DNA of 64,000 nucleotides from positions 1 through 64,000 of the forward strand of contig CABZIW010000002.1 of assembly GCA_902526005.1 (NCBI GenBank), in the 5' to 3' direction. Source of the stretch: an uncultured Pelagibacteraceae bacterium. Lineage in GTDB: Bacteria > Pseudomonadota > Alphaproteobacteria > Pelagibacterales > AG-422-B15. A model generated the notes under the pieces. It worked only from the letters and a program-made list of their open reading frames with translations. It had not been told where the DNA came from and did no database searches. The first letter of the stretch is position 1. Every line of letters begins with the position of its first letter. Shown one piece after another: positions 8,328 to 10,364 of this stretch. The translations under genes were made by a program, and so were the position numbers.

Positions 8328-8791
8328 TTAACTACATCCTGTATGTTATATGTTTTAGGATTTTGAGCCTCGTGTGGATGCTTATCTCCTACATATACTT
8401 TCATATTAGATAGCTGCTTTCTTCCTAGTGGCCCTTTAGGAATCATTCTCTTAACAGCTAATCTGACAAGCCGGTCTGGAAATTTTCCCTCTAATATCTT
8501 TCTGGCGTTGATACTCTTAATACCTCCAGGATATCCAGTGTGTCTATAATAAGTTTTGTCATCGAGTTTTTTGCCAGTTAGCTTAATTTTTTCAGCATTA
8601 ATTATAACAACGTTGTCACCACAATCCACATGTGGCGTATACGTTGGCTTATGCTTTCCTCTTAAAATATTTGAGACATTTGTAGCCAGTCTGCCCAAGA
8701 CTATGTCTTTTGCATCGATCAAGAGCCAATCTTTCTTAATGTCCTCTTTTCTTAGAGACGCTGTTTGCTTTAGTATCTTAGATGTAGTCAT
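8324..8791 (-). CDS. rplM: 50S ribosomal protein L13
   Basis: Early-assembly large-subunit protein. Diagnostic parts are [43 protein letters not shown] and [10 protein letters not shown]. At 155 residues it has the usual length. It is the first gene of the rplM-rpsI-argC-lipoprotein-hom-glpX-recJ operon. The leader is short and lacks a clear Shine-Dalgarno (TAAGCAACAAT before ATG). Confidence 0.98.
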
Positions 8792-8801
8792 ATTGTTGCT
8801 T

Positions 8802-8828
8802 ATTAGAGAATACAGTAAAATATGTCAA
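8802..8828 (-). promoter_or_regulatory. Putative promoter of the rplM operon
   Basis: On the minus strand TTGACA (8823-8828) is followed after 15 bases by TCTAAT (8802-8807). The -35 is a perfect match; the -10 is weak and the spacing is short. It lies directly before the first gene of a long operon, which raises the prior. Confidence 0.4.
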
Positions 8829-8898
8829 CAACATATATTTATATAATAAATTCATATATTTAATTAATGGTATTATAATACTTTTTGTATTATTACGC

Positions 8899-8927
8899 TT
8901 TACATAAGTCTTAGAGTGTTATTCAAT
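8899..8927 (+). promoter_or_regulatory. Putative promoter of the metY leader
   Basis: TTTACA (8899-8904), 17 bases, then TTCAAT (8922-8927). Transcription would start near 8934, just before the aptamer-like sequence, which makes the weak -10 more credible. Confidence 0.35.
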
Positions 8928-8930
8928 ATG

Positions 8931-8973
8931 TTGTCGAGTTTAATACAGCTTGCGGACTTATACAGCTAAGCCA
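8931..8973 (+). promoter_or_regulatory. Putative SAM-II/SAM-V class riboswitch aptamer before metY
   Basis: The RNA would contain GAGUUUAAUACAGCUUGC and later ACAGCUAAGCC. A short stem can form between GAGUUU (8936-8941) and GGACUU (8954-8959), with GCUU in the loop able to pair with the downstream AAGC, an H-type pseudoknot. The conserved words GCUUGC and AGCUAA resemble SAM-II/SAM-V aptamers, which are known in Alphaproteobacteria and marine bacteria before methionine genes. Placement before metY fits: SAM would repress homocysteine synthesis. No covariance search was possible. Confidence 0.6.
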
Positions 8974-8977
8974 TCAG

Positions 8978-9007
8978 CCGCACATAGTATTATGATGCGG
9001 TTTTTTT
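8978..9007 (+). terminator. Intrinsic terminator/attenuator in the metY leader
   Basis: CCGCACATA-GTAT-TATGATGCGG forms a hairpin (CCGCA/TGCGG outside, CATA/TATG inside, one bulged A) directly followed by seven T residues. It stands between the aptamer-like element and metY, so it must be read through for expression. The word TGCGG also occurs in the aptamer (8951-8955) and could pair with CCGCA instead, giving an antiterminator. Confidence 0.85.
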
Positions 9008-9050
9008 GTTTGCTGTGAAACTCGAAGAAAAAATAAATAGAGGTAAAAAA

Positions 9051-10364
9051 ATGGCAAAAAATAAATTTAATCCAGCAGATTCTGTAAACCCTGAAACAAT
9101 TGCATTACATGGAGGTGATTACAGAAGTGATCCTTCTACAACGTCAGTAGCTGTTCCAATTTATCAAACAACTTCATATCAGTTTCATAACACTGAACAT
9201 GCAGCTAACTTATTTGGAGCTAAAGATTTTGGTAATATTTATACAAGAATAATGAACCCTACAGTTGATGTTCTTGAAAAAAGAGTTGCAGCAATGGAAG
9301 GTGGTGTAGGAGCATTATGTGTAAGTTCTGGCCAATCAGCATCTATGTTAAGCATTCAAAATTTAGTCAAAGCTGGGGATAATATTGTTAGTTCAACAGA
9401 TTTATATGGTGGAACATGGAATTTATTTGCTAACACAATGAAAGATTTAGGAATTGAAGTTAGGTTTGCTGACCCTACAGATCCTGAAAGCTTTCGGAAA
9501 ATGACAGATGATAATACACGTGCGTATTACGCTGAAACCTTACCTAATCCAAAACTAAAAGTTTTTCCAATCAGAGAAGTTGCAGATATAGGAGACGAAT
9601 ACAATATACCTCTAATTGTAGATAATACTGCAGCGCCAGTTATATGTAAGCCAATTGAGCATGGTGCAACTATCGTTGTACATTCACTTACTAAATTCAT
9701 AGGCGGTCATGGCACTACTATTGGAGGAATAATTGTTGACAGTGGAAAATTTGATTGGGCTAAAGACCCCAAAAGACAACCTATGTTAAATAACCCTGAT
9801 CCAAGTTATCATGGTATGATATGGACAGAATTTGCAAAAGCAGTTGGTCCGATCGCTTACATTGTAAGAGCTAGGTTTGTAGGGTTGAGAGACTTAGGTC
9901 CAGCTTTACCACCACAAAGTGCATTTCAAATAATTCAAGGTTTAGAAACAGTATCTTTGAGAATGGAAAAGCATTGCTCTAATGCAGCAAAGGTGGCTGA
10001 ATATCTATCTAAACACAATAAAGTTTCACGAGTAATCTATGCTGGTCTTGATGAAGGTGAAGCTGGTGAAAGAGCAAACAAATACCTTAAGGGAGGTCAT
10101 GGTGCGCTCTGTGGTATTGAACTTAAAGGCGGTAAAGCGAGTGGTGAAAAGTTCATAAATAATTTAAATATGTTCTATCATGTTGCAAATATTGGTGATG
10201 CTCGCAGCTTAGCTATTCACCCAGCATCAACAACCCACTCTCAGCTATCAGATGATGATATGGAAGCAGCTGGAGTAAATCCTAGTTATGTGAGACTTTC
10301 GATTGGAATAGAACATATCGATGATATCATCGAAGACCTAAAGAATGCTTTAGACGCAGCATAA
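9051..10364 (+). CDS. metY: O-acetylhomoserine sulfhydrylase (aminocarboxypropyltransferase)
   Basis: PLP enzyme of the Cys/Met metabolism family making homocysteine (and acetate) from O-acetylhomoserine and sulfide. The PLP lysine lies in VHSLTKFIGGHGT; ETLPNPKLKV and VDNTAAPV are typical of the large MetY type, as is the length of 437 residues. The ORF track starts at a TTG inside the terminator T-run (9006), which is not credible. The ATG at 9051 (MAKNKFNP) has AGAGGT 7 bases upstream. Expression is likely controlled by the SAM-type leader. It is transcribed alone, and a terminator overlaps the end of the convergent ctaA. O-succinylhomoserine as substrate cannot be excluded. Confidence 0.93.
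   Translation: MAKNKFNPADSVNPETIALHGGDYRSDPSTTSVAVPIYQTTSYQFHNTEHAANLFGAKDFGNIYTRIMNPTVDVLEKRVAAMEGGVGALCVSSGQSASMLSIQNLVKAGDNIVSSTDLYGGTWNLFANTMKDLGIEVRFADPTDPESFRKMTDDNTRAYYAETLPNPKLKVFPIREVADIGDEYNIPLIVDNTAAPVICKPIEHGATIVVHSLTKFIGGHGTTIGGIIVDSGKFDWAKDPKRQPMLNNPDPSYHGMIWTEFAKAVGPIAYIVRARFVGLRDLGPALPPQSAFQIIQGLETVSLRMEKHCSNAAKVAEYLSKHNKVSRVIYAGLDEGEAGERANKYLKGGHGALCGIELKGGKASGEKFINNLNMFYHVANIGDARSLAIHPASTTHSQLSDDDMEAAGVNPSYVRLSIGIEHIDDIIEDLKNALDAA

Follow-up and report, generated by a model that had tools for sequence, protein, structure and literature searches.

Known SAM-type riboswitches and the metY locus

SAR11 bacteria, which rank with the most numerous cells of the ocean, need reduced organic sulfur, and their methionine synthesis is controlled largely by RNA switches. 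The described systems closest to the element reported here are the riboswitches SAM-II (RF00521, also named SAM_alpha or the metA motif) and SAM-V (RF01826). SAM-II elements often carry terminators and have been interpreted as OFF switches (PMC1273637). SAM-V acts on translation, overlapping the Shine-Dalgarno sequence, and has the P1/P2 sequence AUUGUAC/GUACUAAA. In Candidatus Pelagibacter ubique a SAM-V occupies the rplM/metY locus (PMC2704228), and expression of the metY gene under its control rises with sulfur limitation (PMC5069961). The crystal structure of SAM-V shows A50 holding SAM by its aminoacyl group and U47 by its adenine, with U20:A48.U9 around the sulfonium (PMC6061858); the SAM-II equivalents of these contact residues have been listed (PMC11508383).

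The stretch of DNA analyzed here (the window, 64,000 nucleotides) comes from a 1.23-Mb SAR11 genome, in which rplM (minus strand), a leader, and metY (plus strand) follow one another in the order corresponding to that of Ca. P. ubique. The name metY was assigned because both the rplM-metY locus and the protein match that organism (PMC2704228). The metY leader is best read, with a probability of about 0.7, as a transcriptional OFF switch that acts in cis through a SAM-II-derived aptamer, its ligand most likely being SAM. The kind of element is ordinary, a SAM-type OFF switch, and the details are new; the original SAM-V description (Poiata 2009) may include such variants.

Features of the metY leader and the controlled gene, in window coordinates
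Feature	Position	Strand	Sequence or pairing	Basis or remark
P1 5' strand	8933..8935	+	GUC, predicted to pair with 8955-8957	19/20 elements in alignment A3, flanks variable; exception L019
Putative third strand	8936..8941	+	GAGUUU; conserved UUU predicted to occupy the P2 major groove	UUU in all 20 aligned elements
Antiterminator register (ii), candidate 5' side	8944..8950	+	UACAGCU, with AGCCGCA 8976-8982	forced-fold energies
P2 5' strand	8948..8953	+	GCUUGC	invariant, 20/20 aligned elements
Antiterminator register (i), candidate 5' side	8951..8955	+	UGCGG, with 8978-8982	MFE of nascent RNA at 53-66 nt
P1 3' strand	8955..8957	+	GAC	invariant in alignment A3
P2 3' strand	8965..8971	+	GCUAAGC; bulged U8967 (SAM-V U47), A8968 (A48), G8970 replacing A50	roles by analogy with PMC6061858
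Intrinsic terminator	8976..9007	+	stem CCGCA-CAUA / UAUG-A-UGCGG, then U7 (9001-9007)	about -12 kcal/mol
Capture strand	9012..9024	+	GCUGUGAAACUCG, with 8935-8941 and 8945-8949 in read-through RNA	predicted duplex
Shine-Dalgarno sequence	9039..9043	+	AGAGG	mostly unpaired in predicted read-through RNA fold
metY (O-acetylhomoserine sulfhydrylase family), controlled gene	9051..10364	+	ATG at 9051	ORF and relatives

The transcript probably starts just before 8933. This placement was derived from a TATAAT box found 6-8 nt upstream of the P1 5' strand in two relatives of genus g8 (L164/L165), together with the description of SAM-II (PMC1273637). The best plus-strand site of a promoter scan lies at 8851-8879 and does not fit a start at P1.

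Conservation of the leader within SAR11

In order to survey conservation, 18 metY leaders (the window and 17 relatives, from single-cell and metagenome-derived SAR11 genomes) were aligned (alignment A1). A model of 44 positions built from ten distinct elements (R1) was searched against 397 genomes of the order, its matches below about 27 bits in SAR11 being mostly chance hits inside genes. A sequence-only model of 20 elements (R2), comprising metY leaders of the window's family f1 plus those of genera g2 and g8, was searched against 53 genomes from the family and 385 from the class. The 53 family genomes yielded 27 strong matches (20 in the window's genus g1, 5 in g5, and 2 in g7), every one of them upstream of metY. 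The core GCUUGCGGAC...CAGCUAAGC was present in all 27, with one exception noted, CGGC for CAGC in g7, and was conserved in g5 and g7 even though their metY DNA is just 73-81% identical to that of the window. A CCGC/GCGG hairpin followed by at least six U residues was found in 26 of the 27 elements; the remaining one (L137, whose leader is the same as that of L012) shares these arms, but its U-run is interrupted. About half of the g1 species in the set are without the element, some of the genomes being incomplete.

The element is about 44 nt long. The P2 core UUGC/GCUAA with its bulged U is invariant in all aligned elements, and the third strand of g5, g7, g8, and g2 reads GAUUU, identical to the SAM-II consensus. 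P1 comprises only 3 bp (GUC/GAC) and is broken in one species (L019/G020); its variation in the alignment is not of a kind that tests pairing. Pair counts in the genus alignment gave invariance only and no covariation, which is uninformative since the core does not vary. The first-pass annotation had proposed aligning metY leaders to look for covariation; conserved complementarity was found, covariation was not. Competition between the pairings thus rests on kept complementarity and not on compensatory change.

In leaders of sister g1 species (L024-L029, L032, L035) an apparent decayed aptamer lies about 60-100 nt upstream of metY with no terminator, the best-kept examples reading GUC...UUUGCAGAC...ACAGC. 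The 5' segment of these leaders forms a hairpin with a segment 30-40 nt downstream, and the two arms vary together.

Relationship to SAM-II

A search of positions 8700-9200 with Rfam models returned no SAM family at the gathering threshold, nor at E<=10, so that the check with SAM-II and SAM-V models suggested in the first-pass annotation came out negative there. The window's genome does hold a bona fide RF00521 copy upstream of metX (44.7 bits), the sole one there at the cut-off. Sequence comparison nevertheless connects the metY leader with SAM-II. Leaders of metY in g2 and g8, which belong to families related at the order level, have the same core, mostly with GCUAAAG, and no terminator. 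Model R2 recovers metX SAM-II elements in g5 and g6 (E about 0.005-0.009) that overlap RF00521 matches, and it matches SAM-II-like elements upstream of metX and metY in other alphaproteobacterial orders (E 1e-4 to 1e-3). Because R2 recovers SAM-II-type elements at both genes elsewhere in the alphaproteobacteria, the aptamer is, as judged from these comparisons, SAM-II-derived and not SAM-V. The resemblance to both classes suggested by the first-pass annotation therefore survives in its SAM-II half only.

The order of parts (P1 5' strand, UUU third strand, CUUGC, P1 3' strand, and GCUAA with its bulged U) is that of the SAM-II consensus; a SAM-II descendant whose P1 has shrunk to GUC/GAC is therefore the best reading of the element. 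As in SAM-II, a terminator stands ahead of a methionine gene. The element differs from SAM-II in that P1 has 3 bp instead of about 6, the long P2 extension is absent, and a G able to pair with C replaces the A after GCUAA; it also lies below Rfam detection. The missing model match, the short P1, and the replaced A keep it from being classed with SAM-II, yet it most likely works like SAM-II.

Terminator and predicted competing pairings

Two short words drew attention to this leader. TGCGG occurs twice within 8930-9050 (8951-8955 and 8996-9000) and its complement CCGCA once (8978-8982), as first annotated, and the aptamer-like words GCUUGC (8948-8953) and AGCUAA (8964-8969) are likewise present. 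TGCGG occurs in 1.8% of dinucleotide-shuffled 48-nt upstream stretches and in 0.9% of real 48-nt windows; given the shuffled frequency, the duplication by itself is only mildly surprising. The complementarity is kept in all 27 family members: CCGC stands in the 5' arm, and GCGG occurs once in the aptamer and once in the 3' arm. Relatives lacking a terminator also have an invariant GCGG in the aptamer, which must therefore need this word for its own sake, so that free choice was limited to the arms of the terminator.

The strong terminator ahead of metY is also confirmed: its stem (8978-9000) has 9 bp and one bulged A, which is probably why a simple terminator scan of the leader did not detect it. 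Between g1, g5, and g7 the inner stem and loop differ while the outer arms are constant. Antiterminator and terminator are mutually exclusive in the sequence and in folding, as both use the same CCGCA. In nascent-chain folding, TGCGG:CCGCA (register i) has the minimum free energy at transcript lengths of 53-66 nt, and from 70 nt onward the terminator does. As the fully made terminator wins thermodynamically, read-through must be kinetic.

The pairing proposed as antiterminator in the first-pass annotation is accordingly the best predicted fold over part of the growth of the transcript, but it is not the sole register and in relatives often not the best one. Its pair probability is 0.77 in the window and about 0 in the relatives tested. 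A second, overlapping register (ii) has the 5' side UGCAGCU or UGCGGCU in relatives. Its forced-fold energy in the window is -6.2; g1 relatives with UGCAGC or AGCAGC reach -11 to -12, and g7 reaches -13.5 and -16.8, with a perfect helix of seven pairs. GCAGCU:AGCCGC is about equal to register (i) in the window and stronger in many relatives (those with UGCAGC or UGCGGC). Both registers are weak in g5, whose ACCGCC members keep register (i) alone, weakly.

The metX SAM-II element of the window's genome was considered as proof of the GCGG/CCGC design and set aside, for the metX terminators of relatives use other arms (CCACC in L227, GCUGCC in L208).

A predicted pairing downstream of the terminator

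One pairing escaped the first-pass annotation altogether and is located after the terminator. The capture strand forms a predicted duplex with the aptamer 5' strand of -17.8 kcal/mol, matched by none of 500 shuffles, and in all 18 g1 leaders the pairing stands out from shuffles (p 0.000-0.032). It is moderate or weaker in g5 and does not exceed chance in g7; as a general feature of the element it was therefore rejected, being strong in g1 only. One of its pairs has a two-sided change. The pairing dominates the predicted fold of the full read-through leader, in which the Shine-Dalgarno region stays mostly open (unpaired probability 0.68-0.98 at 9039-9044). Lying beyond the U-tract, the capture strand should not affect termination itself. 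We suggest that it takes the aptamer apart and leaves the surviving mRNA with a base-paired 5' end. In the sister g1 species without the terminator the homologous 5' segment is still paired, within a hairpin.

Proposed mechanism

According to the preferred reading, RNA polymerase would start just before P1. With ligand bound, most likely SAM, P1 and P2 would form an H-type pseudoknot with UUU (8939-8941) as third strand. The pseudoknot would occupy the P2 5' strand, CCGCA would then pair with the UGCGG of the 3' arm, and transcription would stop at U7. With no ligand, the strand UACAGCUUGCGG (8944-8955) would hold AGCCGCA, in either of the overlapping registers, until the polymerase has passed. 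In the read-through RNA of g1 the capture strand would then bind the aptamer 5' strand, leaving the aptamer dismantled and the Shine-Dalgarno sequence open. Each register draws on the P2 5' strand or on the nucleotides right beside it, so that a ligand-stabilized P2 would free CCGCA and stop transcription. This OFF direction is the one expected for a methionine gene. The sequences themselves establish the conserved anatomy, its linkage to metY, its continuity with SAM-II, the terminator, and the complementarities; the fold, the competition, the OFF direction, the ligand, and the part played by the capture pairing are inferred from sequence and folding. Comparison across three genera supports the pseudoknot aptamer, intrinsic terminator, competition for CCGCA, and OFF switch at metY outlined in the first-pass annotation; of repression by SAM, the repression is supported and the identity of the ligand is not to be taken for granted.

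Ligand and alternative explanations

SAM is the likeliest ligand. The equivalents of U47 and of U20:A48.U9 are kept, and with them the contacts to adenine and sulfonium, as is the UUU third strand. The residue after GCUAA is the point of departure. All 81 SAM-II-type elements that were parsed have A there (five of them R2 matches outside the order; five further loci were left unparsed). The 27 family members all have G instead, as do two of the eight g2/g8 elements, which makes 29 GCUAAG elements. Within g8 the A-to-G difference is a clean one-base deletion (GCUAAAGCGG to GCUAAGCGG), so the adenine was probably lost more than once. The missing residue corresponds to the aminoacyl contact, and inosine at A50 of SAM-V severely weakens SAM binding (PMC6061858); SAM binding is therefore plausible and should not be assumed. 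The same switch might accordingly have changed its ligand, to a relative of SAM whose aminoacyl end is changed or absent, or to another methionine-cycle metabolite. Spermidine-sensing variants of SAM-I (PMC10853860) offer a precedent for ligand change in rare SAM-aptamer variants, although their fold is unrelated and nothing here points to a polyamine. Against such a change, metY is a typical SAM-repressed gene, the other contacts are retained, and the C:G pair formed by the new residue could still give the aminoacyl group major-groove contacts; we consider it unlikely. An elaboration of the idea is about as doubtful: that adenine deletion, probably repeated in SAR11, produced a prebuilt P2 helix with a different ligand or specificity, coupled to the terminator and to a post-terminator capture strand that dismantles the aptamer.

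That P2 may be prebuilt follows from its pairing potential. G8970 can pair with C8949 and C8971 with G8948, which would give P2 six pairs and a bulged U; the hairpin of P2 alone is predicted at -3.8 kcal/mol, against +0.2 to +1.7 kcal/mol in A-containing relatives and the metX SAM-II. A ligand might then not be needed at all, and the leader could be an attenuator whose partial terminator or 5' hairpin is fixed and keeps metY expression constant, with P2 a plain helix in a relic aptamer; the decayed aptamers of sister g1 species would suit such a history. A relic would not be expected to preserve its third strand with UUU, its bulged U, and its P2 core without change over three genera with divergent metY, and this explanation is judged quite improbable. 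Most remote is a SAM-V riboswitch acting on translation, as at the metY of Ca. P. ubique. The locus and gene are the same there, and pseudoknot topology and ligand-site logic are similar. RF01826 finds the metY copy in a genome (G017) taken as Ca. P. ubique HTCC1062, its coordinates agreeing with the table in PMC2704228, but gives no match of meaningful E-value in genus g1, and the SAM-V P1/P2 sequence is unmatched in the leader. Moreover, the P2 3' strand ends about 70 nt upstream of the Shine-Dalgarno sequence and does not enter it, the U7 terminator lies between the two, and the Shine-Dalgarno sequence is predicted to be open. Membership in SAM-V was rejected on these grounds.

Under the preferred reading, SAR11 lineages differ in the SAM-type aptamer at their metY locus: one has SAM-V, which works on translation, and another has a SAM-II-derived aptamer that probably works on transcription. 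The latter is a SAM-II descendant invisible to Rfam and lacking a ligand-contact residue thought essential, and whether or not it binds SAM bears on how far a minimal pocket can change.

Related elements at other loci

Several related elements were observed during the searches. In the window's family, a genus g5 genome has a SAM-V upstream of a gene for a BhmT-like protein (L132, G022:C7:91400-92100, around 200-420); a SAM-II-like GCUAAA and a U-tract terminator precede it, giving a SAM-II/SAM-V tandem as at the bhmT of Ca. P. ubique. In other alphaproteobacterial orders, SAM-II-like elements with a short P1 and GCUAAAGCG lie upstream of metX (L262, L263, L264, L266). Those of G547 and G425 are absent from the RF00521 matches at E<=0.001, and Rfam therefore probably undercounts short SAM-II elements. 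The metY leaders of g8 (L163/L165, L195, L196) have no U-tract terminator and a conserved GGAACUUCC...GUUCUUAA(A/G)GUCGA ahead of the Shine-Dalgarno sequence; they are possibly a translational version of the switch. Finally, a 5.5-Mb alphaproteobacterial genome (G676, L265) contains a SAM-II-like element and terminator directly upstream of metY, a link between SAM-II and metY outside SAR11.
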